Below are positions 1 through 16,257 of a stretch of DNA of 16,257 bases, piece after piece. The translations under genes and the position numbers were made by a program. The number at the start of each line of letters is the position of its first letter. The stretch's first letter is position 1. The stretch covers positions 1-16,257 of the forward strand of contig JASXSV010000039.1 in assembly GCA_030674915.1 (NCBI GenBank). Reading direction: 5' to 3'. Source of the stretch: Candidatus Endonucleibacter bathymodioli. Lineage in GTDB: Bacteria > Pseudomonadota > Gammaproteobacteria > Pseudomonadales > Endozoicomonadaceae. The notes under the pieces are model-generated. The model saw only the letters and a program-made list of their open reading frames with translations. It was not told the origin of the DNA and ran no database searches.

Positions 1-130
1 TCCTCTAAAAGATGGACCATGCCGATTCATAACTGGCGTGCAGCACTAAACCACTTTATGATTATTTTTGAAGATAGATTGTCAGACCATATTTAACCAA
101 AGCAGATACACAGAGTTATTTACAGGGTCA
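1..130 (+). pseudogene. 3' end of an IS256-family transposase with IS right end (runs off the window)
   Basis: Frame 1 is open from the first base to a TAA at 94-96. Its tail reads KRWTMPIHNWRAALNHF followed by FEDRLSD, the C-terminal signature of IS256-family (mutator-like DDE) transposases, normally W-x-MP-I-x-NW with a closing F-E-x-RL. Just downstream, 106-129 contains a TACACAGAG...TTTACAGGGTC stretch typical of IS256 terminal repeats, so the element probably ends near 129. Only the last 31 codons are in the window, so whether the whole element is intact cannot be judged. It inserted only about 40 bases beyond the stop codon of the first zinc-finger gene. Confidence 0.75.
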
Positions 131-166
131 TTTAAATCAATTACAATCATCACCATGTAGCATTAT

Positions 167-1387
167 TTATTCAACTAGTATACCCAATCTTGCTAGTCTG
201 TGTGTTTTCATGTTTGAGTGGTTGTGTTTTTTATGTTGTCCTAAAAAATATTTGCTAGTAAATTGTTTTTCACACCATTCACACTCATATAGAAGATTTT
301 CTTCTGAATGAGTAGCTATATGTTCTTTTAAAGTATGCTTGGTAGTCAAGTTCTTGCCACATTTGTGGCAATTAAAAGTTTGTTTCTGGTCGTGATTTTT
401 CATGTGTACTTTCAGAATACTTTTGAGTGTAAATGACTTATTACACCCATGACGTTCGCACTGGTACGGCCTTTCCTCTTTATGGGTGCGCATATGCATT
501 AAGCTATCATCATGTGTATTAAATGTTATACGGCAAATACTGCATGTGTAGGTCTTTTCCCTCTGACCTGTTGTGCTAGCTGGTTTTTCGCCATCTAAAA
601 TAGCAGATGGACAATTATTTTCCTGCACAATACCAGTATTAGCAGTATTATTATAGTCATCATCAAGCAACAGGCGTTTAACATATGTAGTTTTGTCAGG
701 GTCTGCATTATTACGTTGAGACCTGTTTTCATGTGCAGGTCTCATATGCCAGTATGATGAGAATAGTCTGGTTAATATATCTAGGTTATTGCTGTTGCCA
801 TAGTTATTAACCACTAAATCCATGCCGTATGCTGTATTGTTAAGTTCTATTTGTTCTATTTGTTCTATTTGTTCTATTTGTTGAATTTTGAAATTTATTC
901 TCTTGTTAGTTTGATTAATGGTTAATATGACTACAAGTGCAGATGTGTAGCATTTTTGTTTTAAATGTAATTCTAATATATGTAAGAAGTTATCAGCATT
1001 TGCTGTGAATAAATAATCCATATTGCACAGTATAAGATTTTTATGATTATCAATTTTGTGAATGTCCTCAACATTGTCATCTTGTGATATGATTGTTAAG
1101 ATGGTTATAATTTGTTGTTTTATACTTTCATTTAATGTTATTGTTTTATCAATAAGAGCTATATAGCAGGCATCTTCTCTATGCTCAGGTACAAAGCTAT
1201 GAGGCACAAACATAAAATCCCATTTCTCCTTCTCAATATTTATACTTTCAGAAAGATGATTGTCTAGAGAAGCTTTAATGCACAGGGGGATTGACAATAA
1301 GCAAGACAATAATATACCCTTAATAATGGTTAAAAGCTTTAATGTATATGTATATAAATTTGGAATACGCAAGAGTTTCAATGGCAT
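167..1387 (-). CDS. ZnF1: exported protein with four tandem eukaryote-type C2H2 zinc fingers
   Basis: A 406-residue protein. Residues 1-39 form a long basic n-region and a hydrophobic core ending in CIKA, a plausible Sec signal peptide. Residues 50-230 form a domain shared with ZnF2 and ZnF3 that I do not recognise. The C-terminus has four C2H2 fingers: C282/C285/H298/H302, C310/C315/H328/H332, C340/C343/H356/H360 and C369/C372/H385/H390. Fingers 2-4 keep the C-x12-H spacing and the core leucine. The linkers KEERP and DQKQT have the canonical five-residue length of TGEKP linkers. Such tandem fingers are common in eukaryotes and very rare in bacteria; the Ros/MucR type has a single different finger. 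A 9-bp repeat encodes QIEQIEQIEQIE at residues 170-181. The ATG has AAAGGT nine bases upstream. Inferred role: secreted nucleic-acid- or chromatin-binding effector. Family identification of the fingers is firm; the target is unknown. Confidence 0.85.
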   Translation of the reverse strand: MPLKLLRIPNLYTYTLKLLTIIKGILLSCLLSIPLCIKASLDNHLSESINIEKEKWDFMFVPHSFVPEHREDACYIALIDKTITLNESIKQQIITILTIISQDDNVEDIHKIDNHKNLILCNMDYLFTANADNFLHILELHLKQKCYTSALVVILTINQTNKRINFKIQQIEQIEQIEQIELNNTAYGMDLVVNNYGNSNNLDILTRLFSSYWHMRPAHENRSQRNNADPDKTTYVKRLLLDDDYNNTANTGIVQENNCPSAILDGEKPASTTGQREKTYTCSICRITFNTHDDSLMHMRTHKEERPYQCERHGCNKSFTLKSILKVHMKNHDQKQTFNCHKCGKNLTTKHTLKEHIATHSEENLLYECEWCEKQFTSKYFLGQHKKHNHSNMKTHRLARLGILVE

Positions 1388-1430
1388 TAGTTTTTACCTT
1401 TATAATTGCAATAAGTGGAAAATCATCTGT

Positions 1431-1459
1431 ATTATTCTTGATGTAACGGATAGTTGCAA
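1431..1459 (-). promoter_or_regulatory. Predicted promoter of ZnF1
   Basis: On the minus strand, -35 TTGCAA (1454-1459), a 17-bp spacer and -10 AATAAT (1431-1436), followed by ACAG. The -10 lies 44 bases upstream of the start codon. The same arrangement at the same distance is found before ZnF2 and ZnF3, which supports it as the real promoter. Confidence 0.5.
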
Positions 1460-1529
1460 TAATTTTATAATTGATGAATCTCGGGTATATGTTTTTCGAG
1501 ATAATTATGTTGACAACGTTTTCGTATAA

Positions 1530-1688
1530 CATATTGTAATTAAAAGGCTTTTGATTGCTGTGTGTTTTTATGCATGAGTTCAAATCACATTTTTGAATAA
1601 ATGACGTGTTACATTCATTCCATTCGCACTTATGCGGCCTTTCATTTGTATGGAGGCACGTATATTGCATTAGTTGCTGGTTTTTCAC
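1530..1688 (-). pseudogene. Fragment A: decayed C-terminal zinc-finger tail of a lost array member
   Basis: The frame reads the end of one finger (first His replaced by Tyr), the linker TNERP, and a further finger with C-x4-C intact (CEWNEC), C-x12, a Cys in place of the first His, then IKTH. The next linker NQKP leads into F-N-Y, where the next Cys should be. Fragments B and C are homologous and sit at the same place 5' of ZnF2 and ZnF3. I read it as the 3' end of a ZnF gene whose body was lost where the IS5 relic now begins. The open frame continues to 1320 over the ZnF1 start, but nothing after about 1530 looks conserved as protein. No valid start codon or independent function is apparent. 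Confidence 0.65.
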
Positions 1689-1689
1689 T

Positions 1690-2083
1690 ACATTTCCACC
1701 GAGGTGAATAATTGGTTGACAGAATCTGGCATCATCTTGAACGAAGGTTCTTTGGTGATGCCATAATCATAATAGCTCCTACTTCTATTAAAAATAAGGC
1801 ACAGCAGCGTGACCCTGAAGTGTGCTAGACCAAAAAAGGTAATCAATGGCGTTTTGAAATGAAGGCTCATCTCGGAGTTGATACTAGGATAGAGCTGACG
1901 CATATCCTGGTGACAGTCGCTAATGAATACGCCTTAATCAGGATAGATAATTGATCAAATTCTCATATTCTCCGACTCGGGTTACCTGGGAGTAGGAAAT
2001 AGACCTGAATTGCAGGCTGTAAAAGCTAAGTGGTTTATTGCCGAGAATACCATTCAAGGTAAGAAAGTTTTGGTTGTATTGTA
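1690..2083 (+). pseudogene. Relic of an IS5-family transposase
   Basis: Plus-strand frames together spell pieces of an IS5-family DDE transposase: EVNNWLTESGIILNEGSLV, then IIIAPTSIKNKAQQRDPEV, a stop, [19 protein letters not shown] near 1835-1885, and after a gap SDSGYLGVGNRPELQ with AKWFIAENT near 1970-2060. These correspond in order to the family's first catalytic-Asp region, the TKKGNQWYFGMKAHIGVD motif, the second catalytic-Asp region (ADAGY) and the W-HIA motif. At least two frameshifts and several stops are needed, so it is dead. It separates ZnF2 from fragment A and ZnF1 and probably removed the body of an array gene. Confidence 0.8.
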
Positions 2084-2150
2084 AAGGATTTTTTCATATT
2101 GATGTTTCGCCAAAATATAATCGACTTTGTTGATTTATGCTGAGATCTCT
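2063..2150 (+). repeat. Dispersed repeat R1, copy 1 (matches the mpl upstream region)
   Basis: This stretch, starting GAAAGTTTTGGTTGTATT and ending in TATGCTGAGATCTC, aligns nearly base for base with 9799-9886 directly upstream of mpl, with only small indels. It keeps a possible promoter: TTTCAT (2092-2097), 18 bp, TATAAT (2116-2121), paralleling TTGCAT and TATGAT in the other copy. It has no plus-strand gene to drive here. Confidence 0.6.
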
Positions 2151-2206
2151 ATGTGTCAATAAATGTGAGCATATATTTAACATGCTTGATTTCCATCTCT
2201 GTAATT

Positions 2207-3373
2207 TCAATCATTCAAAATATCCATTGTACTATTTATGCAATTAGTATCTTTCTTTTGTGTGTGCTGGCTCCGCATATGTCTGACTAAAGAGCTTTTG
2301 TGAGAATACTTAGCACCACACGTTAGGCAAAGAAAATAATTGTGAGTGATATGATTGTTGTTATGTGTTTTTAAGTGACTTTTTTGAACAAATGCGTGGC
2401 CACACCCAGGCCACTTGCACTGGAACCGCCTTTCCTTTGTAAGGGTCCGCGTATGTTTTGTTAAATTACTGGGTTGATTAAATTCCTTACCATAGGTATC
2501 ACACTTGTGGGTCTTTTTCCTTGAAACTTTTGTATTATCTGTTTTTTCGCCACTTGAAACATTAGGTGCACAAGGGGGTAAATTATTTTCCTGTTCCATG
2601 CCAATATCCATACCTATATTTTCACCAGTAGTATTCAAGCATATCTCTGGATTCTGGATATTTTTCATATTAATTTTATCATCATGGAATAGATATCCCA
2701 TATCAGCCTCTTTGTCACTAACGGCATTATTGCTTTGAGAACTGTTTTCAGGTGCATGTCTCATATGCTTGCATAATGCTAATAGACGTTTTAATATATC
2801 TAGGCCATTGCTGGAGCTATTAATCATTGGGTTCTTGTCGTATACTGTACTATTAAGTTCTATTTGTTGAGTTTTGAAGCTTAATTCCTTATTATATTCT
2901 TTCATGGTAAATATAGCTACAAATGCATATTTGTATCTTTTTTGGCCTAAATCTAAAACACGAGAAAAACTATCAGCATCTACTGCTAATAAATAATTCA
3001 TATTACAAAGCGTAATGCTGTGATAGTTGTTAATGTTTGGAGCTTCCTTGATGTTATCAGCTTGTGTCATTTTTATTAAGGTGCTAGCAACTTGTTGATT
3101 TGTACTTTCATCCAACATTATTTTTTTATCAATCATGGCAATATAACAAACTTCTTTTCTATGCCAAGGTGCAAAATGCAGAGGTGTAAACATAAAAAGC
3201 CATTCCGCTTTTTCCTTATTAAAAGTTATACTTTCAGCAAGATTATTATCTGGCCCAGCTTTAATGCACATGGAGGTCAACAAACAATAAGAAAGTAATA
3301 TGCATTTAATCATAGTTGAAAGATTTGATCTGTATGTATGTAAGTTTGAAATGCGCAAGAAGTTTAGTGTCAC
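2207..3373 (-). CDS. ZnF2: exported paralogue with two intact and one broken C2H2 zinc finger
   Basis: A 388-residue paralogue of ZnF1. Translation starts at GTG (3371-3373), preceded by AGGTGG at six bases. The encoded start, MTLNFL, matches ZnF3. Residues 1-39 form a signal peptide with the same CIKA end. The N-terminal domain shares HR..-CYIA-ID, LCNM-YL, FK-QQIELN and LDIL with ZnF1. Finger 1 (from C291) has lost its second Cys (Y294) and last His (L311). Finger 2 is C319/C324/H337/H341, and finger 3 is C349/C352/H365/H370. The recognition-helix residues differ from those of ZnF1, so any DNA target should differ. A KVSRKK basic patch precedes the fingers. Export followed by nucleic-acid binding in a host is inferred from the domain layout, not demonstrated. 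Confidence 0.83.
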   Translation of the reverse strand: MTLNFLRISNLHTYRSNLSTMIKCILLSYCLLTSMCIKAGPDNNLAESITFNKEKAEWLFMFTPLHFAPWHRKEVCYIAMIDKKIMLDESTNQQVASTLIKMTQADNIKEAPNINNYHSITLCNMNYLLAVDADSFSRVLDLGQKRYKYAFVAIFTMKEYNKELSFKTQQIELNSTVYDKNPMINSSSNGLDILKRLLALCKHMRHAPENSSQSNNAVSDKEADMGYLFHDDKINMKNIQNPEICLNTTGENIGMDIGMEQENNLPPCAPNVSSGEKTDNTKVSRKKTHKCDTYGKEFNQPSNLTKHTRTLTKERRFQCKWPGCGHAFVQKSHLKTHNNNHITHNYFLCLTCGAKYSHKSSLVRHMRSQHTQKKDTNCINSTMDILND

Positions 3374-3416
3374 TTATGTCCACCTATCTAATAACAATCA
3401 TTTGAGAATTAGCTGT

Positions 3417-3445
3417 ATTTTGCTGTATTCAGCGTACTTGTGCAA
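3417..3445 (-). promoter_or_regulatory. Predicted promoter of ZnF2
   Basis: On the minus strand, -35 TTGCAC (3440-3445), a 17-bp spacer and -10 CAAAAT (3417-3422), then ACAGCT. The -10 begins 44 bases upstream of the GTG start, the same distance as in ZnF1 and ZnF3. Confidence 0.5.
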
Positions 3446-3453
3446 TAGTTTTT

Positions 3454-3768
3454 TTATTTATTAATATCATACATGTATTTTCCTAGATAATTACTCAGGG
3501 ATAGTGTAGGCAGCATGTTGTAATTTAAATGCCTTTCTGCGCTCTGTATTTTCATAAGTGTGCGTAAATTACATTTTTGAATAAATATAGTGCCACACTC
3601 ATTCCATGTGGTCTTGTGAGGACTTTCATTTATATGGGGGTGGAGATCTTCTATGAAGAGGGGCATATTATTATTAATTTCATTGCCAGACAATAGGTGT
3701 TCATTATCTGGTCCTTTGTCACAATCTGCATTATTAATATGAGAAAATTTTATAAATTCAGGACTCAA
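3454..3768 (-). pseudogene. Fragment B: frameshifted tail of ZnF3 with a degenerate finger
   Basis: This frame continues ZnF3 after a one-base slip at about 3768. It opens with a third, eroded copy of the ZnF3 internal repeat (SHINNADCDK) and ends in a finger remnant, TTWNECGTIFIQKCNLR. The remnant matches fragment A's CEWNECNTSFIQKCDLN, but the first Cys is now Thr and both His positions are lost. Restoring one T at the junction would fuse it in frame to ZnF3 as a protein of about 500 residues. The zinc site would still be non-functional. No credible ribosome-binding site precedes the apparent first Met, so I treat it as a broken 3' end and not a separate gene. Confidence 0.65.
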
Positions 3769-4952
3769 TGTCTCCGCTTTTTCCTTTGATTTGTTGTGTT
3801 ACCTGATTGCTCATAAGATGTAAAAGTGTTTTCTGATTCGATATAAAAATCCGCATAAATATAAGGAGGATTTATTTTTGGATGCATGCTATCAGAACTA
3901 TTGCTTTCCTCATCAAACAACGGGCGTTTCTTGTGGGGCATTTTGTCACAATCTATATTATCAGGTTGAGAAATGTTTTTAGATGCAGTATTAAAATGCC
4001 TCCTCTTTTTCCTTTGATGTGTTGTGTGATCTGGTGGTTCATACGCTAGTATGTCAGGTGTAAAAGTATTTTCTGGTTCGATATAAACATCCTCGTGGGT
4101 ATAAGGGAGAGGGATCTTTGGATGCAGGTTGTCATAACTATCACTTTCATCATCAAGCCTTGGACGTTTCTTGCCTGACATGTTATTACAATCTGCATTA
4201 TTAATTTGAGGAATGTTTTTAGATGCATGTTTCAGATGACTACATGATGCAAATAGTGGTCTTACTATATCTAGTGCCTTGCTGAAGTCATTAATAATGA
4301 GTGCCTCATCATATGCGATATTTTTAAAGTCTATGCGTTCAAGCTTGAAGTTCACTTCATTAGTAGCATCATTAAGTGCAGCTATAACTACAAGTGCAGA
4401 TGTATATGATTCTTTTTCTAAAGATGACGCTAAATCTACACCTAAATTTAAATCTATCATATCTATGTCTGAATCCATATCTACATCCATGTCTGGATTA
4501 GACAATGATCTATCACTATGTGTATGCTGTCTATCTGCTAATAAATTATCCGTGTAATAAGGCGTAAAACATCGAGGGTCACTAACATTTGTCGTATCTT
4601 CAATATTATTATCTTGGAGTATGGTTGTTAAGTGGGGGCAAATTTGCTGTCTGATACTTTCACTTGATGTTATTGCGGTATCAATTATAGCCATATAGCA
4701 AATACCTTTTTTATGCCATCGTGCAGTATTGTTAGGCATGAAAACCAAAGACCATTTATCCTTATCAGAACCAAGGTTAAGAAATGTGTTATGAAGCTCA
4801 AGACGTGCTATTTGATCAATAGGAGCATCTGGCCCAGCTTTAATGCATATGGAGGTTAACAATAAATAAGAAAATAATATACCGTTCAGAATAGTTAAAA
4901 GCTTAAATCTACATGTATATGCATTTGACGTGCTCAAGAAGTTCAATGTCAT
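3765..4952 (-). CDS. ZnF3: exported paralogue without fingers, carrying repeated NLS-like basic motifs
   Basis: A 395-residue paralogue with AGGGGTG eight bases before the ATG. Residues 1-39 form a signal peptide (CIKA end). Residues 60-240 form the shared N-terminal domain, interrupted by an acidic low-complexity insert DMDVDMDSDIDMID (154-167). Residues 243-322 and 323-395 are a tandem duplication with an 80-residue (240-bp) period. Each copy has a Lys/Arg motif near its start (KKRPRLDDE at 261, KKRPLFDEE at 341) and a second at its end (QRKKRRH at 313 and 389). All four resemble classical monopartite nuclear localisation signals. A TGA created by a one-base frameshift ends the protein just before the degenerate finger of fragment B. 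It may be a functional short nuclear-targeted protein or a decaying pseudogene. Confidence 0.75.
   Translation of the reverse strand: MTLNFLSTSNAYTCRFKLLTILNGILFSYLLLTSICIKAGPDAPIDQIARLELHNTFLNLGSDKDKWSLVFMPNNTARWHKKGICYMAIIDTAITSSESIRQQICPHLTTILQDNNIEDTTNVSDPRCFTPYYTDNLLADRQHTHSDRSLSNPDMDVDMDSDIDMIDLNLGVDLASSLEKESYTSALVVIAALNDATNEVNFKLERIDFKNIAYDEALIINDFSKALDIVRPLFASCSHLKHASKNIPQINNADCNNMSGKKRPRLDDESDSYDNLHPKIPLPYTHEDVYIEPENTFTPDILAYEPPDHTTHQRKKRRHFNTASKNISQPDNIDCDKMPHKKRPLFDEESNSSDSMHPKINPPYIYADFYIESENTFTSYEQSGNTTNQRKKRRH
3768..4226 (-). repeat. Tandem 240-bp in-gene duplication within ZnF3
   Basis: Copy 1 occupies 3987-4226 and copy 2 occupies 3768-3986. Translated copies align from ASKNI through the KKRP motif, a HPKI segment, an ENTFT segment and QRKKRRH. 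Copy 2 is shorter by four codons in the ENTFT-to-RKKRRH part. A third, eroded copy appears to start in fragment B. ZnF1 has only a single diverged version (RNNADPDK with VKRLLLDDD). Confidence 0.8.
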
Positions 4953-4995
4953 TGGTTTTCACCCCTATAATTCCAACCATTATAAAAACAGCTGT

Positions 4996-5024
4996 ATTCT
5001 TCTTTATTCAACGTATGATTGCAA
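4996..5024 (-). promoter_or_regulatory. Predicted promoter of ZnF3
   Basis: On the minus strand, -35 TTGCAA (5019-5024), a 17-bp spacer and -10 AAGAAT (4996-5001), then ACAGCT. It lies 44 bases from the start codon, as in the two paralogues. The conserved hexamers sit in an intergenic region that is otherwise diverging. Confidence 0.5.
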
Positions 5025-5079
5025 TAGTTTTCTCATTTATGAATATCACACATATATGTTCTGAGATGATTGTTTTGGG

Positions 5080-5220
5080 AATGTCTTGAGTCAATATGTT
5101 GTAATTAAAAGGCTTTTTGTTGTAGCGCTTTGTTATACATGCGCTCAAATTGTATTTTTGAATAAATGTATTGTCACACTAATTCCATACGCACTTGAGT
5201 GACCGTTCATATGCATGCTG
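5080..5220 (-). pseudogene. Fragment C: decayed zinc-finger tail upstream of ZnF3
   Basis: The minus strand reads ERSLKCVWN, a stop, CDNTFIQKYNLSACI, then NKKPFNY. This aligns position by position with fragment A (ERPHKCEWNECNTSFIQK...CI...NQKPFNY). The stop falls between the finger's two cysteines, so it is dead. It implies that a fourth array unit once lay upstream (rightward) of ZnF3, before the IS481 relic. Its position relative to ZnF3 equals that of fragment A to ZnF1 and fragment B to ZnF2. Confidence 0.65.
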
Positions 5221-5292
5221 CACAGATATTGAATAGGTGCTTATTTGTGATATTTAGTGGAGTTGTGTATATCTTTTTGAAAGGATTTGGGT

Positions 5293-5696
5293 ATGAATAT
5301 GCACATGAAAATAAGTTTAACGCCGCTGGCTAGTAAAGATATTTGACTACACTATGGGGCGGGAAGCTGGGCGATCGTGGCGCTTTCCAGAAGTTTCATG
5401 GCATTATGGACAACTATTTGCAAGGTAGGAGTTTACGCCACGGAAGTCCACCAACAATCGCTTCTTGGCCGTAAAATTTGGCATAAAACGCCTAGTAAAA
5501 GCAAAAGTCTCAATTGAACGCAAGAAAAAAGCAGAAGCAAGACGTTACAACAAAAATTACCCAGGCGAGATGAGCACAAAGACAGGCCGCGTGCATATTT
5601 ATTCATTGCCATCGACGACTTTCCGCGTGAGTTGTGATCGGCATCCTGCCTGATAAAACCCAAGCAGCGGCAGCAGCGTTTTTGAGAGAGTTTCTA
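5293..5696 (+). pseudogene. Relic of an IS481-like transposase, truncated by an IS5-family element
   Basis: The start, MNMHMKISLTPLASKDI, resembles the N-terminus of IS481-like integrases just before their helix-turn-helix. Later pieces in three frames are KKAEARRYNKNYPGEM, AYLFIAIDDFPREL (which carries a catalytic Asp region) and ILPDKTQAAAAAFLREF, in the order expected for the family's integrase core. Several frameshifts and a stop after KDI show it is dead. The reading stops at 5697, exactly where the terminal repeat of the next element begins, so that element inserted into it. Confidence 0.7.
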
Positions 5697-6869
5697 GGGA
5701 ATCTCTGATTGAAGTAGTTTGCAATTCGATTATCAGATGTGCGATCAAACTCTCTGACTTCCGATCTTATTTCCTCGTAACTTTCGATTCATTTTGTCGC
5801 TTTTACCCACTTATCCGCTCTAGAGGCGGATTTAGAGCGCAATTATGTCGGTAACGCATTACGTTGCAGGTATAAATTGGTCATTGCCACCAGGCTAATA
5901 ACTTGCGACCTGTTTTTTTCCAAACCACGGTAACGTAATTTGCGGTAACCAAACTGACATTTGATGATTCGGAACAAGTGCTCACCCTGGCTCGTATTTT
6001 TGATTGTTGGCGATTACGTGTGCGTTGACTGCTATTTAGGTTGCCTTTTCTTGCTTTGCGCTTGTCATTTACTTTCCAATGTAATCCTAAGCATCGAGCG
6101 CTTCGCTTATATGTGTTGCGGGTGTAGCTCGCATCGCCAAAGATTACTTCGTTTCGTTTTCCTATCTCAACAAGGCAGGCAGTTCGCCAATATCCGCTTT
6201 ATTGGCAGAGGTAACCGTTACTGTATGAGCAGTACCACTATTCACATACGCACCGATATTGATCTTCATGCCAAAGTACCACTGATTTCCTTTACGTGTC
6301 TGGTGCATTTCAGGATCACGTTTGCCCTAGACGTTTTTGGTCGAGGACGAAGCTCTTATTAATGTGGTATCAATCATGGTGCCTTTTGAAAGAGCAAGGC
6401 CGTGTAATTGCAAATGCTCACTGACCGCAGTAAATAACTTGTCAGTCAATTGATTACGCTCCAATAGGTGACGAAATTTCAGGATAGTTGTTTCATCAGG
6501 GAGCCGATCTTCGCACAGCTCCAATTTAGCAAATCTTCTCATTGATTCAATTTCATACAGCGCGTCTTCCATCATCGGATCGGATAGTTGAAACCATTGC
6601 TGCATGAGATAGATACGTAGCATAGTGGTCAAGCCGATAGGTTGCGCCCTCCAATACGTCCACTTTTCGGGTAATGTGGTTTAATGATTGCTTCAAAGGC
6701 TGCCCAAGGAACACAAGATTCCATTTTCTCAAGGAATAACTCTTTTCGCGTTTTGCGTTTTTTGGCTGCGTAGCTGAGCGACGCAAAACTTTGTTGTTCC
6801 ATTTTGGATAACCGGCTTGCCATAGCAATGCTATTGTACTAGGTTTTGGAGATTCAATCAGAGATTCCC
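5697..6869 (-). mobile_element. IS5-family element with perfect 17-bp terminal inverted repeats, transposase broken
   Basis: Ends 5697-5713 (GGGAATCTCTGATTGAA) and 6853-6869 (its exact reverse complement) bound a 1173-bp element. The minus-strand transposase is split. Residues from 6823 downward read SYAAKKRKTRKELFLEKM and VPWAAFEAIIKPHYPKSG. A shift near 6630 leads to MLRIYLMQQWFQLSDP...DETTILKFRHLLE...GTMIDTTLI, which contains the first catalytic Asp. Further fragments are FGDASYTRNTYKRSARCLG (second Asp) and EHLFRIIKCQFGYRKLRYR (catalytic Glu region) near 5870-5990. At least three frameshifts or stops make it defective, although its ends are intact and could be moved in trans. Confidence 0.85.
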
Positions 6870-6871
6870 TA

Positions 6872-7719
6872 TGGAATCTCTGAACAAGCACGTTTGTTTT
6901 TTACCAGCGCTTAAAAAGCCAAATTTAAATTTATGGTGTATATATTCATCTTACTGGGCGTGTTTTTAGGTAAATTAGCCCTATTTTTTTCGTTTCCCTC
7001 GCTTTTGGCGAGTTTTGGGCGGATTAACCCCCCAAACGCCCTCGTAGCATGTAAAGATTGGCCAGTCCAAGCAGGTTGAATACTTGAACTGCATTTTTTA
7101 CTAAGCCTTTGTAGCTGGCTTTCTTGTATCCGAACTGACATTTTATCACTCTAAAGCAATGTTCTACTCTGGCACGAATCTGTGAGTTTTTGCGGTTTTG
7201 TTTCTTTTGTGATGAGCTCATATTTTTCTTTGGTTTACGTTTATCATTAACCTTACAGCTCATGCCAAGGCTGCGTGCTCCTCGTTTGTAAGTGTCACTA
7301 GTATAACCCGCATCTGCGAATACTACTTTGTCATCTTTGCGCAGGAACTTGGGTAATTCGTTAACATCTAATACATCAAGTTGCGCAAACCAACGCATAC
7401 AGTCTATATCGTATAAGGCATGCTCTGCTGCAGGATCTGATAATGAGTACCATTGCTGTAAGAAATAAATCCGGAACATGCTTCCCATTGGCATTGGTGG
7501 GCGACCTTTGCCTTTCTTGGGATAGTAAGGCTCTATAATATTGAGCAAGCGTACCCATGGTACGGTTTTTCCCATTTCATTTAAAAAGATATCACGTTTA
7601 GTGATCTCTTTTTTATGGGTGTATTCTGCAGATGCGAAAGTGATTTGTTTCATACGACAATACTGTTTGTTTGTGTGGCTGTATTATCTCACATTTATTA
7701 GACTTATTCAGAGATTCCC
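6872..7719 (-). mobile_element. Second IS5-family element, an internal-deletion derivative abutting the first
   Basis: Ends 6872-6888 (TGGAATCTCTGAACAAG) and 7703-7719 match as inverted repeats at 15 of 17 positions, giving an 848-bp element. It begins only two bases after the end of the neighbouring element. The two share the terminal core GGAATCTCTGA and belong to the same IS5 subgroup. It carries one uninterrupted but shortened transposase gene (see the separate entry). Confidence 0.8.
7024..7653 (-). CDS. Internally deleted IS5-family transposase
   Basis: A 209-residue open frame; full-length members of the family are roughly 320-330 residues. The N-terminal part (RDIFLNEMGKTVPWVRL, then MFRIYFLQQWYSLSDPAAE and MRWFAQLDV) runs to NELP. 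It then jumps directly to KDDKVVFADAGYTSDTYKR, and it ends with RARVEHCFRVIKCQFGY. The second Asp (ADAGY) and the Glu (RVEH) of the DDE triad are present. The whole central block with the first Asp (normally a VDATII motif) and the TKKGNQW motif has been removed without breaking the frame. It should be catalytically dead, though it could still bind its own ends. Confidence 0.85.
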   Translation of the reverse strand: MKQITFASAEYTHKKEITKRDIFLNEMGKTVPWVRLLNIIEPYYPKKGKGRPPMPMGSMFRIYFLQQWYSLSDPAAEHALYDIDCMRWFAQLDVLDVNELPKFLRKDDKVVFADAGYTSDTYKRGARSLGMSCKVNDKRKPKKNMSSSQKKQNRKNSQIRARVEHCFRVIKCQFGYKKASYKGLVKNAVQVFNLLGLANLYMLRGRLGG

Positions 7720-8048
7720 TATGGACATTTGCTGGTGCGGCTAAGATGATTATGTAACCAGAGGAAGTTGCCAAAGAGAGGGGCGAGCAAGCACAGAGTG
7801 ACGCCATGGTTCGTGACTCACAAGGGTAGTTCCAAAGGGGAGGAGATGGGGATAAGGATAAGATGGGCATTATCCAAGAAGGCTGGGAAGACTCAGGTCT
7901 TCTGGTTGGAGACGATGGAGTTTGGAGCGTATGATGCGTAGTTCCCACCCAGACTCAGATGAATGGGGTGATCCTGCTTACTGGGAAGACATCATGACCA
8001 TAGAGGCCAGTCCTGAGGGCTGATTTAATTTAACTAAGGGAGCTTACC
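7720..8048 (+). other. Region without a recognised gene; only short unassignable open frames
   Basis: Between the IS element and the small ORF before rpiA there is no recognisable gene. One plus frame is open for 63 codons (7750-7941) without a convincing start. A 30-codon ORF (7931-8023, MMRSSHPDSDEWGDP...) has a bacterial look but no match I can name. The long minus-strand frame 7613-7948 crosses the IS end and looks like a shadow. The sequence is G-rich compared with the ZnF region. A decayed coding or phage remnant is possible but not shown. Confidence 0.35.
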
Positions 8049-8162
8049 GTGAGTAAAAACAAGCCAGCGCAATGGAAAGAAGTAGGTGGGATAGTTGAGG
8101 ATACACCAAGTATACCAGAGCTTGAAGGTAACCAAGCTGGGCAGATGAGGACGGAAATATGA
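8049..8162 (+). CDS. Small ORF (37 aa) overlapping the rpiA start
   Basis: It starts at GTG (8049-8051) with AAGGGAGC a few bases upstream, a good ribosome-binding site. It reads [20 protein letters not shown]... and ends at a TGA (8160-8162) that overlaps the rpiA ATG as ATGA. Such overlaps usually mean translational coupling, and rpiA has no convincing ribosome-binding site of its own. The peptide is hydrophilic, without a signal sequence or membrane segment, and I do not recognise it. It may be a leader whose translation feeds rpiA, or the remnant of a longer gene. Confidence 0.4.
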
Positions 8163-8857
8163 TCTCGGAACGAGCAGATCAGGCAATCAAACGAGGTTTT
8201 AAGAAGGTTGCAGCCGAAGCTGCCCTGAATCACATTGTACCATGTATGGACGGAGACATGGTTGTAGGCATTGGGACGGGCTCAACAATTAGTTTTTTTA
8301 TTGAGGCTCTTGCTATGCATAGACATGATTTTAATGGCTGTGTTGCCAGCTCTAAAGCAACAGAAGAGCATTTGAAGTCCTATGGTATAGCTGTGTATGA
8401 TTTAAACGCAGTTAGAAGTTTAAGGTTCTATATTGATGGTGCGGATGAAGTTAATACTCACTTCCAGCTGATTAAGGGTGGCGGGGCGGCTCTTACAAGA
8501 GAAAAAATTATTGCTGCGGTTGCTGACGAGTTTATTTGTATCGTTGATGAAAGTAAGTCTGTTTCTATATTGGGTGAGTTTCCACTTCCTGTTGAAGTAA
8601 TTCCAATGGCAAGAGGTCATGTTGCCAGAGAGATTGTTAAACTTGGGGGGAATCCAGCTTACCGTGATGGAGTTGTAACAGACAATGGCAATATTATTTT
8701 GGATATCTGGAATCTGAAAATTATTGATCCTATTGCTCTTGAAACACAAATCAATCAAATTGTCGGAGTTGTGACTAACGGGATATTTGCTGTGAGACCT
8801 GCTGACATGATGATGTTTGGTACTAAAGATGGTGTAAAAACTATCAAGAGAGTTTAA
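8159..8857 (+). CDS. rpiA: Ribose-5-phosphate isomerase A
   Basis: RpiA interconverts D-ribose 5-phosphate and D-ribulose 5-phosphate in the non-oxidative pentose phosphate pathway, a cytosolic step feeding nucleotide and aromatic precursor synthesis. The 232-residue product carries the family motifs GIGTGST (37-43), DGADE (93-97) and [12 protein letters not shown] (106-117), and ends in [10 protein letters not shown]. Catalytic residues correspond to the E. coli Asp81, Asp84, Lys94 and Glu103 at D93, D96, K106 and E115, all shifted by exactly 12, so the enzyme should be active. The extra 12 residues are N-terminal ([12 protein letters not shown]). The start overlaps the stop of a small upstream ORF as ATGA. 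Downstream lies IS630 debris, so it appears to be the last gene of its transcript. Confidence 0.95.
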
Positions 8858-9079
8858 TGGAAGTTGCATAAAGACTGCGTTATCGCATGGCTATGGCTTG
8901 ATCCGTAGGTGCTTCGGCTGCTTGTATGCTAGCAACTATTGGATTGAAACTGTTTTTCTGCACTTTCAGCTCATGTTAACACTCAATCAACCTCACAGCA
9001 AAAAAAACAGACTTGGAATAACGCCATAAGGAAATGCGTGATGCTTGAGAGTCGTACCTCATTGAGGAGGCATTGCCGC

Positions 9080-9775
9080 TTATATTTCTTAGTACTGAAA
9101 TATTAGATATACCGTGTCTGACCTGAACAAATAGCTTGATTTACAAAAAACTGAAGTGGTATTCACAAGTATGACTCTGAAAAACAGGCTAAGTACTATG
9201 AAGCATTGAGGGCTTCATTGTTAAGGATGAAGTGGTGCTTTTTATGGATGTAGTTAATTTAACGTAGGAGGAAAAAAACACCTAAAGATGTTTTTTGCAT
9301 GGGGCTGGTAAAGTCATCAGTACGAATGGGGTTCGCACTTGGCTAGACATCGTCTGCGCTATTAAACTGGACAATTTATAAGTAGCTATTTTTGATTAAT
9401 TTAAGACCCTTAATGGAGTGGCTATTATCGAATTTCCCAAAAAACCCGGAGTGCTTATGAGTCAATGGAAATAATCCATATGGTTCTTTATGGGCTGGCT
9501 GCCATCGTTAAAATAAGTTGGGAAAGATAGTCAAAAAGTTGTAAATAAAACTAGGCTGCCTGTCGCCTTACAGTCCAAATATTAACCCAGTTTAGCGGCT
9601 GTGGAGGCCAATAATGAATATGCCAGGAATAATAAATACTTCGCAACTGCGAAAGGTTTGTGACAAAAAATAAATAATTACCTATACGAAACTTTACATG
9701 TAACTAACGTTTTGTTGTTCAGCAGTATTTACGACAATTGTGAGGTTTTGAAACCTGTATCTGAATTTGCGTGGG
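9080..9775 (+). pseudogene. Relic of an IS630-family transposase filling the rpiA-mpl gap
   Basis: Reading across plus-strand frames gives IS630-family pieces in the right order: YTVSDLNK, a stop, LDLQKTEVVF (about 9110-9155); YDSEKQAKYYEALRASLL (9168-9222); DEVVLFMDVVN (9228-9260, first catalytic Asp); NGVRTWLDIVCAIKLDN; NGVAIIEFPKKP; and NEYARNNKYFATAKG with QKINNYLYETL and LKPVS near the end (9611-9765). IS630 transposases typically have FMDAVHP, R-x-NI-GALNLDN and a C-terminal W-x-MNEYARNN-Y-F block. Numerous stops and frameshifts show it is long dead. The gap 8858-9080 holds nothing I recognise. Confidence 0.75.
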
Positions 9776-9798
9776 TATAGGTCAGTGGTGGATACGAA

Positions 9799-9886
9799 AA
9801 GTTTTGGCTGTATTTAAAGGATTTTTTGCATGTTGATATTTTACCAGCATATGATTGACTTTGGTGCGTTATGCTGAGGTCTTAAT
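9799..9886 (+). repeat. Dispersed repeat R1, copy 2, with the probable mpl promoter
   Basis: It aligns with 2063-2150. It contains -35 TTGCAT (9826-9831), an 18-bp spacer and -10 TATGAT (9850-9855), about 60 bases before the chosen mpl start. The equivalent hexamers exist in the other copy. Either the mpl promoter region was duplicated, or mpl is now driven by the end of a mobile element. Confidence 0.5.
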
Positions 9887-9914
9887 AAAGTTATATCTCA
9901 ATAGGAGCAGGAGA

Positions 9915-11270
9915 ATGCATATACACGTTCTGGGCATATGTGGAACATTCATGGGAAGCTTGGCTATTCTTGCTCGGGAACATGGCTTCAAAGTATCCGG
10001 ATCGGATCAGCATGTTTATCCACCAATGAGCTCTCAGCTTGAAAGTGTGGGTATAGAGTTAATGGAGGGTTATGTTGAGGCTCACCTAGAGCCGAAACCA
10101 GATCTGGTTGTGATTGGTAATGCTCTTAGTCGAGGTAATCCTGCTGTTGAGTATATTCTGGATAAAGGCTTGTCCTACACTTCGGGGGCTGAGTTTTTTG
10201 CTAGCTATCTCTCAAAAGATAAATGGGTCTTGGCGGTGTCTGGCACTCATGGGAAAACCACAGTCAGTAGTATGTTGGCTTGGATTCTTGAATATGCGGG
10301 CATGTCTCCTGGTTTTCTGATAGGTGGCGTGCCCAGTAATTTTGGTGTTTCTGCTAGATCCGGAGATACGCCTTTTTTTGTAGTTGAAGCGGATGAGTAT
10401 GATACAGCTTTTTTTGATAAACGCTCAAAGTTTGTCCACTATCGACCACGGACATTGGTTATTAATAATCTTGAGTTTGATCATGCGGATATTTTTGAAG
10501 ATCTTGCCGCTATCCAAAAACAGTTCCATCACTTGATCAGAACTGTTCCTAGTTCTGGGCGGATCATTCTACCGGATGGTGAACAGAATATTGATCAAGT
10601 TCTGGATATGGGCTGTTGGTCAGAAACGGAGGTGTTGGGAAAGCAATGGCAGGCTAGGGCTTTGAAAGATGACGGTTCGACATTTGAAGTGCTCAAAAGC
10701 GGTAAAACATATGGTTGCATTACCTGGGGGGAGATAGGTAGCCATAATATAGCCAATGCTATGGCAGCTATTGCTGCAGCTAGGCACGTTGGGGTGTTGC
10801 CAGGGGTTGCATGTGATGCGCTATCTGAGTTTCAAGGGGTAAAGCGACGTATGGAGCTGGTAGCTGAAATACGAGGTATTAAAATCTATGATGACTTTGC
10901 CCATCATCCTACAGCTATAGCAACCACTCTTGAGGGTTTTAGGGCTAAAGTAGGTAATAAGCCAATCAGGCTTGTTATTGAGCCGCGCTCTAACACCATG
11001 AAAATGGGGGTTCATAAACAGGCTTTGTTTGACTCTATTCAGAGTGCTTCTGAGGTTATCTGGTTCCAGTCTGATGGTTTGAAATGGTCTTTGGAAGAGC
11101 TGATACAGGGAAGCTCCGTTCCGTCGAAGTTGTTGAATACCACTGAAGCTATAGTCTGCTATCTGAAAGATACGGCGAAGGCAGGGGAAAATATCCTGAT
11201 TATGAGTAATGGGGGGTTTGAAGGAATTCATGCTCGAATAGTTCAGGCATTGGAATCGGATAAAACTTGA
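9915..11270 (+). CDS. mpl: UDP-N-acetylmuramate:L-Ala-gamma-D-Glu-meso-DAP ligase
   Basis: Mpl reattaches the tripeptide L-Ala-gamma-D-Glu-meso-DAP, salvaged from old peptidoglycan, to UDP-MurNAc using ATP, a cytosolic recycling step. The 451-residue product has the N-terminal nucleotide-binding HVLGICGTFMGSLA (4-17) and the P-loop GTHGKTT (110-116). The Mur ligase central signature is EADEYDTAFFDKRSKF (158-173), with NNLEFDHADIF following. It then has GVKRRMELV (308-316), DDFAHHPTAI (327-336) and MSNGGFEGIH (430-439). I chose the ATG at 9915 because GGAGCAGGAG sits directly before it and family proteins begin M-x-IHILGICGT. The frame is open back to 9855, but that extension is not family-like. 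The motifs are complete and no lesion is visible. It is flanked by IS630 debris and the convergent gene at 11452. Confidence 0.95.
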   Translation: MHIHVLGICGTFMGSLAILAREHGFKVSGSDQHVYPPMSSQLESVGIELMEGYVEAHLEPKPDLVVIGNALSRGNPAVEYILDKGLSYTSGAEFFASYLSKDKWVLAVSGTHGKTTVSSMLAWILEYAGMSPGFLIGGVPSNFGVSARSGDTPFFVVEADEYDTAFFDKRSKFVHYRPRTLVINNLEFDHADIFEDLAAIQKQFHHLIRTVPSSGRIILPDGEQNIDQVLDMGCWSETEVLGKQWQARALKDDGSTFEVLKSGKTYGCITWGEIGSHNIANAMAAIAAARHVGVLPGVACDALSEFQGVKRRMELVAEIRGIKIYDDFAHHPTAIATTLEGFRAKVGNKPIRLVIEPRSNTMKMGVHKQALFDSIQSASEVIWFQSDGLKWSLEELIQGSSVPSKLLNTTEAIVCYLKDTAKAGENILIMSNGGFEGIHARIVQALESDKT

Positions 11271-11349
11271 TGTCAGGAGTGGAGCTCTGAAGGTATTCAT
11301 GATTCTTACTGAGAGTATGTATCTGTAGCTAATCCTCACCTTGACTACC

Positions 11350-11410
11350 TTGGTATATACCCTATTCCCTTTGAAGGCGTGAGAGTATTGAATGCTCTTA
11401 CTCAGCTTAG
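11350..11410 (+). repeat. Dispersed repeat R2, copy 1 (mpl 3' intergenic region)
   Basis: The segment from GGTATATACCC through TTCCCTTTGAAGGCGTGAGA to GTATTGAATGCTC aligns with 16091-16135, and its later part also aligns with 15700-15735. It lies in the 180-bp gap between two convergent genes. I see no strong rho-independent terminator in that gap, so the repeat may serve in its place, but this is unproven. Confidence 0.5.
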
Positions 11411-11451
11411 ATAGCTGCACCTATCCACACCTTCAATGGTAGCTGGTATAG

Positions 11452-12396
11452 CTATAAGGTTATAGATGGCGTGGGGGTTAGCTCCTTTTGGGAAACCATG
11501 TTGTGTAACCACAGAGCAAGGGCGTCCAAGTAAATAGCCAATGGTGTATGGATATCAGCCGCTTCGGCTGCTAGGGTGGTGCTGAAACTATTGGGTAATT
11601 CACTTTGTACGACAATTTGCTGGTAAGCAGCATGTGGCTGGTCTGAAATAATCAGTACAGAGCCAGCTGGAGGGTTAGATTTCATCCACTGTTGTAAGGT
11701 GTTTCTGGTGTTTGGTCGTTGCCATTGATTGTCAGTCCATATTCGTGGAGACGTTATAAATCGGCAGTCCGTATTTCTCAGGCTTTTAGGTATGGTGCTG
11801 GTAACCCAAATCATTTTTGCTCCTTCAGTTTCTGTTAATGGGCGTGCAGATTCACTGATATTTCCGCCAGTAGCTTGCTTGACTAACTCATCTACGTGGT
11901 CAATATTTTGAATTAGAGGGCGCTCTCCGGTAAGAAAAAGAATCTGATTTGACGTTACACCCTCTGTCCAAAGTCTGTTTACCTGATTCAGGCGCCGCTG
12001 CATTCTTGGTATGGTAGCGCCTAAAAGTAGAACATAGTCATAATTTTGTTTATCGGGCTTCAGTTCATGAACAAGCCCCAAAGAAGTCAGAATTTGTAAA
12101 ACTTTCACCTTTGTTTCCGCAGAAACGTTGACTTCAGGCATTTCCCAACGCTCAACGCCAGGTTTACGTCTCCATGCGGATGACGCCTGAGTCATCGATT
12201 CTGGTGTGTTCTTGTGAGGGATGTTAAGCAGGGTTTGTATTTGATCTAGTTTAGAGAAAAAATTTTGGTCCCTAGCTTGAGACAAGGTGGTTATTAGCAT
12301 TGTGGACATCCATAATATTAGGAGCCATATATTGACGGCAGAAGGAAGCCGAGAAATTATTACAAACAGCATTTTGCCGGTGGATGTAACTTTCAT
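11452..12396 (-). CDS. Exported YdcF/DUF218-like protein
   Basis: A 314-residue protein from the ATG at 12396, chosen because TAGGTG precedes it at normal spacing. A GTG three codons upstream would place the same site inside the gene. Residues 1-43 carry a hydrophobic segment (NIWLLILWMSTMLITTL) ending in SQA before RDQN, a plausible signal peptide, so the protein is probably periplasmic. The middle has YDYVLLLGATIPRMQRRL followed by LW-x-EGV and ILFLTGERPL. Later come RPNTRNTLQQWM and GSVLIISDQPHAAYQ. This pattern, a hydrophobic strand, a turn with charged helix, a second strand with TG, and then NT and a strand with a conserved polar end, resembles the YdcF/DUF218 fold linked in some bacteria to envelope metabolism. 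Recognition is by pattern only and is moderate. It converges on mpl and is followed by the 100-residue gene in the same direction. Confidence 0.5.
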   Translation of the reverse strand: MKVTSTGKMLFVIISRLPSAVNIWLLILWMSTMLITTLSQARDQNFFSKLDQIQTLLNIPHKNTPESMTQASSAWRRKPGVERWEMPEVNVSAETKVKVLQILTSLGLVHELKPDKQNYDYVLLLGATIPRMQRRLNQVNRLWTEGVTSNQILFLTGERPLIQNIDHVDELVKQATGGNISESARPLTETEGAKMIWVTSTIPKSLRNTDCRFITSPRIWTDNQWQRPNTRNTLQQWMKSNPPAGSVLIISDQPHAAYQQIVVQSELPNSFSTTLAAEAADIHTPLAIYLDALALWLHNMVSQKELTPTPSITL

Positions 12397-12463
12397 TGTT
12401 TGCACCTATAGTGAGTTGACTCTGTACAGGGTAGATGCAAATTCGTCAGCTATCAGGAAAATA

Positions 12464-12766
12464 TTATATAGCGTCTTCTTTTTCCTGTGGTTTGCTCTTT
12501 GTTAGGAGTTGTTGGTCAAGGTCGGGGATAGGCCAGTTTTCAGGATATGTCTTTGCTAGGTTTTCCATTACCACGGAATATTCATTAGCAGGTTTATTTA
12601 ATAAATAAGTGAGGAAGGTGTAAATTCTGTCAGAAATTTGCTTTTTGAACAGAGATAGCTGTTTGTCAGTGATTTGTTTATTACTGTGGCATTCCTCTAA
12701 AATGGAGTCATTCACACAGTTTGCTGCTATGATGATCGTGAGTTTTTTAATATTATCTTCGTTCAT
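12464..12766 (-). CDS. Unrecognised small hydrophilic protein (100 aa)
   Basis: The frame is open for 100 codons with mixed charge, predicted largely helical, and no signal peptide or membrane segment. Its C-terminus is rich in Lys, Glu and Gln (TKSKPQEKEDAI). Features visible are an Asn/Asp-rich start (MNEDNIKK), a KKLTIIIAANCVND hydrophobic helix and two cysteines near residues 17 and 26. There is no clear ribosome-binding site before the ATG, which lowers confidence. It lies 67 bases upstream of the YdcF-like gene on the same strand and could share its transcript. I know of no family match. Confidence 0.5.
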   Translation of the reverse strand: MNEDNIKKLTIIIAANCVNDSILEECHSNKQITDKQLSLFKKQISDRIYTFLTYLLNKPANEYSVVMENLAKTYPENWPIPDLDQQLLTKSKPQEKEDAI

Positions 12767-12887
12767 TATGTGTAGCTCGGCTATAAAGTAGAGTATGCTA
12801 TCGTACTTTAATCTACAGGAAAGGGCGCTTGTTTTATTGCATTATCTATGTCGTCCATTTCTGAGAGAATGGACTTGGTGCCCTTGG

Positions 12888-12936
12888 AATGTCACACGCC
12901 ATCCTCGTAACCTACTCCTTGTAGGCTTACGGGACT
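12888..12936 (+). repeat. Dispersed repeat R2, partial copy with a small hairpin
   Basis: CCCTTGGAA is followed by CCTAC (12911-12915), a 5-base loop and GTAGG (12921-12925), then CTTACGGG. The same hairpin and flank, CCTAC-TATTC-GTAGG then CTCATGGG, occur at 16152-16175. The copy lies in the 200-bp gap between two small minus-strand genes, which holds no other recognisable element. Confidence 0.4.
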
Positions 12937-12968
12937 ACGCGTGCTAATGTCTTACACTCATTTTGCAG

Positions 12969-13496
12969 TTACTGTTTCCTTGGAACTATCGTCTTGGCTC
13001 CATTATTCATTAGCTCCTGTGCCTTCGGATGGGTCCCATTAAGCAAGTGCCTTTTTAATGTTTCCGGATCACCTTGATAGTTACCATTATCATTCCACTG
13101 CGCCAATGTTTTGTCTGCATCTGGGTGTGTCCCTTCTAGAAAGTTGCGGGTTGCTGTTTCGGTTGATGTTCCCATCTCACATTGTCGGCTCTGTCTTTTA
13201 ACTGTGCTGTATGCTTGAGATGCGTCTGAGGCGGCCATAAATAGCCATGGAACAATGCCACAGGAGGCCATAAAAACATGGGTTGCAACATGATGATTTT
13301 TAACACGGCTTACCCACTCTTTATAAACTTTAGGTATGAGTTTTACTGGCTCTGTCCATCCCTTGATTTTACGCCCAAAAGCACTAAACTTCGCGAGAAT
13401 CCGGTTTTGCATTTTCTTTTCTGAAAAATCTTGTTTTCTAAAGAGGACAACCGAAGATTGTGTTTGTTGAGTTTGATTTGAATTGATTGGTTTCAT
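12969..13496 (-). CDS. Unrecognised 175-aa protein with a GTHP repeat and one hydrophobic segment
   Basis: AAGGAG stands eight bases before the ATG, a strong bacterial ribosome-binding site, so this is likely expressed. The N-terminus is Gln/Asn/Ser-rich (NSNQTQQTQSS) and not a signal peptide. Residues 25-66 are basic. Residues 72-90 (THVFMASCGIVPWLFMAAS) form one hydrophobic segment. The C-terminal third has two copies of a short unit: NFLEGTHPDADKTLAQW (118-134) and HLLNGTHPKAQELMNNG (150-166), ending in basic VPRKQ. A polar N-terminus, a single hydrophobic segment and short C-terminal repeats fit an effector or host-interaction protein, but this is inference. I recognise no family. Confidence 0.65.
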   Translation of the reverse strand: MKPINSNQTQQTQSSVVLFRKQDFSEKKMQNRILAKFSAFGRKIKGWTEPVKLIPKVYKEWVSRVKNHHVATHVFMASCGIVPWLFMAASDASQAYSTVKRQSRQCEMGTSTETATRNFLEGTHPDADKTLAQWNDNGNYQGDPETLKRHLLNGTHPKAQELMNNGAKTIVPRKQ

Positions 13497-13589
13497 AAGT
13501 ACTTCTCCTTGTTTGTTGTTATTCCGTCTATAAACAGATTATCTCTCCTAAATTCTTAAGAAGCACTAACAATGCTGTTGGTAATACTA

Positions 13590-13875
13590 ACGAACATGCT
13601 CATCGCCTTTGGAGCTGCTGATAGGCTGCGTTATACCTCTCTTATTGCTTCGGCTTGCTCCATTTTGCGGCGGAAGAAAACAACAGAGGCATAGACGTAG
13701 ATCAGTAGGCATAGCAGAGTCTAGGGATGATGGACCTGTGCCAGCTATAACAGTACTGCTGAGGAGTCATGCGAAAGATCTAGCTGTCTGACAACTTCGG
13801 CAACAAGGCGCACTAAATGATCTTCTGGCAGCCACTCATTGAGTGATGAGATAGTAGTGGTTGAGCTGGATACTG
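13590..13875 (-). pseudogene. Relic of an IS1182-like transposase N-terminus
   Basis: Minus-strand reading gives TTISSLNEWLPEDHLVRLVA and EVVRQLDLS, then after a stop and shift LLCLLIYVYASVVFFRRKME and QAE..., ending in a degenerate AAPKAMSMF. IS1182-type transposases begin with a LNDWLPEDHLARFV...VDQLDLS block followed by a MLL-LL-YGYATG-FSSRKIE segment, in the same order and spacing. Stops and frame changes show a dead fragment of the first 90 or so residues. It fills most of the gap between the GTHP-repeat gene and erpA; 13876-13995 shows nothing else recognisable. Confidence 0.6.
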
Positions 13876-13995
13876 GTTATTTCATGTGATTGGGGTTAAT
13901 TTCGACAATCTCCTAGTATTCGCTCATGGATTGAGCGTGTTTTAAGAGTACTTAAATTGAGACAGTTGCATCGGCTGTTCATGAAAAGGTGTCTT

Positions 13996-14349: not shown

Positions 14350-14449
14350 TGATTCTCCTGTGATGCTGGTTTGTGGCCTGTCTGTGCCAGAGAGAGTATA
14401 GAGGTATTGGCCGTAATGAGTGCGTTTTAAGGTTTATTGAGGGCTATTC

Positions 14450-15650: not shown

Positions 15651-15681
15651 CGTAATATGATTATAAGTAAATTATCTCTAG

Positions 15682-15708
15682 GGGGAGCTTATATTGAGAC
15701 TGCTCCCC
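15682..15708. terminator. Inverted repeat upstream of the DUF6776 gene
   Basis: GGGGAGC (15682-15688) and GCTCCCC (15702-15708) form a perfect 7-bp GC-rich stem with a 13-base loop. No long T-run follows on either strand, so a terminator role is uncertain. It could also act in the 5' region of the operon transcript. Confidence 0.35.
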
Positions 15709-16185: not shown

Positions 16186-16257
16186 CGTCGCCTAATTATG
16201 CCTTCAAAAGTGGCTGATACAGAGGAGTGTTAGGTTTGTTTACTTGATACTGCTCTA

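Follow-up and report, generated by a model that had tools for sequence, protein, structure and literature searches.

A tandem array of putatively exported C2H2 zinc-finger proteins in an intranuclear parasite of deep-sea mussels

The three-gene array

We analysed a stretch of 16,257 nucleotides from Candidatus Endonucleibacter bathymodioli (GenBank assembly GCA_030674915.1, contig JASXSV010000039.1, positions 1 to 16,257 of the forward strand; hereafter the window), which carries near one end three paralogues arranged in tandem: ZnF1, ZnF2 and a third gene, the third paralogue (Table 1). 'Ca. Endonucleobacter' is described in PMC11521996 as a parasite that multiplies in the nuclei of deep-sea mussels. 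An earlier note on this DNA, made from the sequence alone, had proposed three paralogues with a shared N-terminal domain, preceded by Shine-Dalgarno sites and free of introns in a bacterial setting. Open reading frames (ORFs), alignment and tblastn bear this out: the N-terminal parts of the three proteins align along their whole length, whole-protein identity to ZnF1 is 44% for ZnF2 and 33% for the third paralogue, and tblastn among the genes gives E values of 1.6e-32 or better. Shine-Dalgarno-like sites (AAAGG, AGGTGG and AGGGGTG) stand before the three starts, the genes are intron-free and the contig is bacterial.

Two of the genes encode classical C2H2 fingers. Taking C-X2/4-C-X12-H-X3/4-H as the definition of an intact finger, we count four in ZnF1 and two in ZnF2, six in all and as noted earlier, and none in the third paralogue. 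Both finger-bearing proteins match PF00096 above its Pfam cut-off of 25.2 bits (ZnF1 in four stretches, 3.8e-11 and 43.2 bits; ZnF2 in three, 4e-9 and 36.8 bits). Adjacent intact fingers are joined by five residues, the length first reported for all, in three of the four linkers and by six in the other. Among sequences in the PDB, ZnF1 matches ZFP568 (2.3e-26), CTCF (4e-24) and PRDM9 (2.1e-20). The Ros/MucR profile PF05443 reaches an E value of 0.14 in ZnF2, below cut-off, and has no match in ZnF1 or the third paralogue; Pfam detects no TALE repeat and no SET domain in the window genes. An NCBIfam search gave no match above cut-off.

The third paralogue has no Pfam family match at E ≤ 1. It contains an internal repeat (3816-4001 and 4056-4241, 75%) and three basic motifs (KKRPR once, QRKKRRH twice), which we take to be similar to nuclear localisation signals. 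ZnF1 has a short tandem repeat of its own, at about 841-885, encoding IEQ repeats.

The 5' blocks of the genes recur at spacings of about 2.0 and 1.6 kb (repeats D1 and D2), and the duplicated unit, as read from these repeats, ran from one gene's end as far as the next gene. Beyond the features listed in the earlier note, the array holds three finger remnants, one upstream of each gene.

Table 1 Features of the array and of leader-sharing proteins in a close relative (window positions unless stated otherwise)
Feature	Position	Strand	Description and basis
ZnF1 gene	167..1387	-	406 residues; N-terminal domain behind a predicted signal peptide; four C2H2 fingers, all intact; ORF and PF00096
ZnF1 predicted signal peptide	1271..1387	-	residues 1-39, junction IKA|S; inferred from alignment
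ZnF1 finger block	218..544	-	intact fingers 482-544, 392-460, 308-370, 218-283
Finger remnant upstream of ZnF1	1530..1656	-	repeat D2; tblastn to ZnF1 fingers 4.4e-5; PF13465 0.0056, below cut-off
ZnF2 gene	2207..3373	-	388 residues, GTG start; N-terminal domain behind a predicted signal peptide; three fingers, one of them broken; ORF and PF00096
ZnF2 predicted signal peptide	3257..3373	-	residues 1-39, junction IKA|G; inferred from alignment
ZnF2 finger block	2264..2503	-	intact 2351-2419, 2264-2329; broken 2441-2503
Finger remnant upstream of ZnF2	3514..3640	-	repeat D2, 73% to 1530-1656
Third paralogue	3765..4952	-	395 residues; N-terminal domain behind a predicted signal peptide; fingerless; ORF
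Third paralogue predicted signal peptide	4836..4952	-	residues 1-39, junction IKA|G; inferred from alignment
Finger remnant upstream of third paralogue	5095..5221	-	repeat D2, 74% to 1530-1656
Duplicated 5' block, three copies (D1)	1246..1545, 3232-3531, 4811-5110	.	unit of tandem duplication; 65% and 72%
Three tandem ankyrin-repeat proteins	G007 L167 5843-8218, 9467-11830, 13641-15608		leader as in the zinc-finger family

An expanded family in a close relative

The N-terminal ~230 residues of the window proteins are a lineage-specific leader, in which a predicted signal peptide precedes a domain of unknown fold; no Pfam family scores above cut-off for this domain in any of the three proteins. 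The signal peptide, its cleavage and export by the Sec system are predictions. Searching 37 genomes of the bacterial family with a profile of the N-terminal domain, we found 17 full-length copies in the genome of 'Ca. Endonucleobacter sp. (ex Gigantidas childressi)' (G007; hereafter E. childressi) and none in the other 36. The window genes score between 1.3e-104 and 3.1e-91 against this profile, but all three were used to build it; profile-free support comes from the alignment and from phmmer matches to P0003 and P0004, encoded on one contig of 'Ca. Endonucleobacter bathymodioli' and sharing their N-terminus with the window proteins. The homologues in related symbiont genomes that the earlier note had suggested looking for are present in both species, and two further relatives lie on JGI contigs. 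By predicted signal peptide and shared N-terminal domain, the window proteins belong to this putatively exported zinc-finger family of Endonucleobacter.

Three or more fingers are carried by 16 of the 17 E. childressi copies, and in the remaining one the leader and six fingers lie in two ORFs divided by a stop. Database entries identical to this array comprise 16 proteins, and in a tree of the N-terminal domain these form one group (100/99), with the three window proteins ungrouped, a topology that speaks for a lineage-specific expansion in E. childressi and an older divergence in the window. Duplication and loss shape the array, with 17 copies in E. childressi and erosion in the window. Family members from Endonucleobacter are annotated in the database as 'C2H2-type zinc finger protein', and we found no paper on this family or on exported zinc-finger arrays in the lineage among the open-licence literature of PubMed Central. 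Scans with the three-gene alignment matched its pattern in 21 stretches of genome contigs and 14 stretches of viral contigs, none of which was confirmed as a relative.

The profile also matches, in part (residues 8-86), three more E. childressi ORFs of 664-791 residues (E values of 4.1e-10 to 1.2e-9). The two that were scanned carry Ank_2 (4.8e-23 and 2.5e-23), and the third reads alike (Table 1). Once these ankyrin proteins are included, a leader profile recovers the same 20 proteins plus a decayed, weak match in E. childressi (0.064) and a weak match in genome G034 (0.057). The leader stands on zinc-finger and ankyrin proteins alike, and so one leader serves two eukaryote-type payloads; ankyrin proteins with the same leader are what would be expected if these are exported, host-directed proteins.

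Diversification, structure and origin of the fingers

We estimated the ratio of non-synonymous to synonymous differences (pN/pS) from eight of the 17 E. childressi copies, those with five regularly spaced fingers. It is 0.05 in the signal peptide (bootstrap 0-0.49), 0.77 in the N-terminal domain (0.49-1.30) and 2.90 in the fingers (1.95-5.47; finger 5 alone, 0.84), and falls to 0.22 (0-1.03) at codons for the Cys, His and core residues. With all 16 copies, the signal peptide, domain and fingers give 0.36, 0.87 and 2.19. As these ratios indicate, the finger fold is kept and its surface is changing. Swapping of fingers between copies could inflate pN/pS; pS is low nonetheless (0.085).

The change is not directed at DNA-contact positions in particular. 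There, pN is 0.327 compared to 0.306 at other positions, and per-position entropy is not contact-focused. In a calibrated left-out test on 78 distinct E. childressi fingers, the four DNA-contact positions were not unusually variable, ranking 324, 121 and 516 among 715 position sets, and the diversification is therefore no proof of DNA targeting. An uncalibrated version of the test had looked positive and was biased, as neighbours were selected on other positions; we dropped preferential change at contact positions as a claim.

A first structure model was poor, with a mean predicted local distance difference test (pLDDT) score of 42.3. That of P0023, a member from E. childressi, averages 51.6 and combines five well-predicted fingers (blocks of 72-88) with a poor N-terminal part; Foldseek ranks Aart (1.2e-13), PRDM9 (1.7e-13), CTCF (1.4e-12) and ZFP568 (1.9e-12) first among its matches. 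Animal sequences matching the window proteins (28-40% identity over 18-31% of the query) come from fish, insects and a frog. A eukaryotic origin of the fingers is plausible, and no single donor stands out among the animal matches, which are short and spread over unrelated animals.

Zinc fingers and other eukaryote-type domains across the bacterial family

The earlier note had called tandem C2H2 fingers almost absent from bacteria. For this bacterial family that has to be qualified: PF00096 occurs in 29 of the 37 genomes (28 over cut-off), and a review notes zinc-finger enrichment in the related genus Kistimonas (PMC12491435). Among 292 genomes sampled from the order, 16 have PF00096, five of them outside the 37. 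We inspected the N-termini at one locus in each of the 29 genomes, three of the 29 ORFs being cut at their 5' end, and found a hydrophobic stretch of 2.0 or more in G004, G006, G014, G029 and E. childressi, most clearly in G006, G029 and E. childressi. The finger proteins at L113 (G006) and L107 (G029) clearly have a hydrophobic N-terminus that is unrelated to the window leader, and that at L111 (G004) less so.

Genome G021 contains a second array of predicted exported type (L128 and L171-L176, C1:3780000-3919300), with 40 ORFs that have one signal-peptide-like leader, 36 of them with three or more fingers. Each of the eight ORFs scanned has a SET domain that passes the Pfam cut-off, and KKRK-like basic motifs occur in those inspected, a combination that reads as a PRDM-like layout in a bacterium; Pfam finds no SET domain in E. 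childressi. By profile, the G021 N-termini have no relation to those of the window, and the pairing of signal peptide with fingers probably came about at least twice within this family, whose members are animal symbionts. G021, G022 and G023 also encode finger proteins of 240-263 residues that have no leader at all. In the calibrated test, contact positions rank modestly high in G021 (16, 27 and 51 of 715), and the outcome is mixed for its small set of 240-residue proteins (33 and 69 of 715, 58 of 285) and for G034 (59, 26 and 287 of 715).

G034 (L123-L127, L131 and L179-L182) encodes long tandem arrays in which 102 ORFs have at least two C2H2 fingers each (938 fingers counted); most of these ORFs lack a signal-peptide-like start. 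In G012, many SET-domain matches cluster at C1:4951472-5021712 (21 in the genome). BIR domains are found in 16 of the 37 genomes, with most matches (28) in E. childressi, where two BIR proteins carry RING and a hydrophobic N-terminus, in line with the report that all seven inhibitor of apoptosis proteins (IAPs) of E. childressi have Sec signal peptides (PMC11521996).

Genomic context

The flank of the array encodes RpiA, Mpl, a DUF6776 protein, an Fe-S assembly protein, a bactofilin and transposase remnants. Of the 37 genomes, E. childressi has the Mpl closest to that of the window, at 89% identity, with 76% or less in the other 36. The gene order DUF6776-bactofilin-Fe-S protein-...-mpl-rpiA is largely common to the window and E. 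childressi apart from some duplications and a swap, judged by eye from the ORFs. By this kinship the window most likely belongs to the 'Ca. Endonucleobacter' lineage. The zinc-finger array of E. childressi is sited apart from this syntenic housekeeping block, at C1:1400926-1447934. On the side of rpiA where the window holds its array, E. childressi has two paralogous proteins of 403-405 residues with hydrophobic N-termini (L195, 11774-12991 and 13195-14406), the second without a Pfam match. Three window ORFs (11452-12405, 12464-12766 and 12969-13496) have no Pfam match over cut-off and recur in E. childressi between the Fe-S protein and mpl, again by eye. The transposase remnants (PF05598 and PF01609) lie between the array and rpiA, at 6327-6632 and 7024-7653.

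Discussion

We consider it probable that the window array encodes exported proteins, two of them with classical C2H2 fingers, that leave the cytoplasm by the predicted Sec route and are set free in the host nucleus, with host DNA as the likely target of the fingers. Sec would take the protein out of the cytoplasm and a further step would carry it across the outer membrane; with the bacterium already inside the nucleus, the fingers would then meet chromatin directly, bind host DNA and alter host gene expression. The eukaryotic X12 spacing of the fingers and their sequence match to DNA-bound fingers count for this reading. The earlier note had likewise proposed exported effectors of a nucleus-dwelling bacterium, a proposal that keeps its footing in the classical fingers, the predicted export and a lineage known from nuclei (PMC11521996) and finds no support in preferential diversification of contact positions.

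Several observations pull the other way. The signal peptides were called from a hydrophobic core and an A-[G/S] junction conserved in members of three lineages rather than by SignalP, the N-terminal domain has no confident structure model (blocks mostly under 50 pLDDT) and passage beyond the periplasm would not be explained by a Sec signal. The terms 'zinc' and 'C2H2' are not used in the main text of PMC11521996, and no expression of these genes is seen there. The leader family was found in just one of the 37 genomes, and the TGEKP consensus is kept in none of the four window linkers. With TGEKP lost, a finger broken in ZnF2 and the third gene fingerless, function may be fading in the window copies. 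To these we add the calibrated result for the contact positions of E. childressi.

That result also counts for an alternative that we regard as unlikely though the strongest of its kind, in which export again delivers the proteins to the host nucleus but the targets of the fingers there are host proteins or RNA rather than DNA, and the fingers diversify as their protein partners change. Variation in E. childressi that is spread over the finger surface, window linkers other than TGEKP and sister proteins whose same leader precedes ankyrin repeats, a protein-binding fold, would all suit it, whereas the regular tandem arrays of E. childressi, which best match DNA-bound arrays, would not. We rank DNA-directed effectors higher because a bacterium residing in the nucleus would need nothing beyond export for its proteins to meet chromatin.

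Two further explanations are improbable to a similar degree. The proteins could serve the bacterium itself in the periplasm or at its surface, for instance in the capture of zinc or extracellular DNA, with no host target: the one export signal predicted is of Sec type, a route over the outer membrane is not known, and zinc and DNA would both be available in the nucleus. Yet fingers that diversify around conserved ligands are unexpected in a housekeeping scavenger of metal or DNA, and such a role sits poorly with a leader common to ankyrin proteins. Alternatively, the family could be decaying neutrally and have no present function in the window organism, as the broken finger, the fingerless paralogue, the three remnants and a pN/pS of 0.79 in the N-terminal part among the three window genes would suggest; against this, two frames remain open and hold six intact fingers between them, and close relatives have intact, selected copies.

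More doubtful still is a regulatory role within the bacterium itself, at the membrane or in the cytoplasm, with the hydrophobic N-terminus acting as an anchor or the true start lying further in. Start codons do exist within the leader, and G021, G022 and G023 have their leaderless finger proteins, but no other part of the E. childressi array is as conserved as the leader, the A-[G/S] junction is kept across lineages and the long starts are served by good ribosome-binding sites. An assembly chimera with eukaryotic DNA, to which the lower guanine-cytosine content of window positions 1-5000 (31-37% compared to 36-45% in the remainder) might point, was rejected in view of the Shine-Dalgarno-like sites, the lack of introns and the paralogues in two named bacterial metagenome-assembled genomes (MAGs), one set of which lies on a 1.53 Mb contig of E. 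childressi.

Beyond export and DNA binding by the window proteins, we tentatively propose, with somewhat less confidence than in that reading itself, that intranuclear bacteria of the Endonucleobacter lineage secrete a rapidly evolving set of zinc-finger proteins, enlarged by duplication, to bind the DNA of the host whose nucleus they inhabit. These proteins would be the animal-parasite equivalent of transcription activator-like (TAL) effectors, with a bacterial export leader swapped between animal-style fingers and ankyrin repeats. If true, a bacterium would alter animal gene expression from within the nucleus by means of a large set of zinc fingers, the DNA readers that animals themselves favour. 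This would open up the question of how an intranuclear parasite keeps its host cell alive while filling the nucleus, supply naturally occurring exported zinc-finger arrays to work on and extend the record of host-type genes (IAPs) reported from the same parasite.

TAL effectors of plant pathogens are bacterial proteins that bind host nuclear DNA by tandem modules, being injected by type III secretion and built from TALE repeats. The window family would resemble them in its predicted nuclear DNA-binding tandem modules, and differs in that these are C2H2 fingers, with no TALE repeat matched in Pfam. With animal tandem C2H2 factors such as ZFP568, CTCF and PRDM9, the window proteins share finger spacing and sequence, whereas those factors have no signal peptide and the window proteins have neither introns nor a KRAB, BTB or SET part. 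Ros/MucR proteins are likewise bacterial and have C2H2-type ligands, but are described as bacterial transcription regulators (PMC9779718). Within the same parasite, the exported IAPs of 'Ca. Endonucleobacter' also combine a Sec signal peptide with eukaryote-type domains; these are BIR and RING domains, reported as host-derived (PMC11521996), and none occurs in the window genes. Closest of all are the C2H2 proteins in the database entries of Endonucleobacter MAGs (E. childressi and 'Ca. E. bathymodioli'), which have the signal peptide, N-terminal domain and C-terminal fingers of the window proteins, with fingers that are more numerous and more regular and are joined by TGEKP-like linkers, and which in E. 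childressi form a tandem array of 17 copies, compared to three and their remnants in the window.

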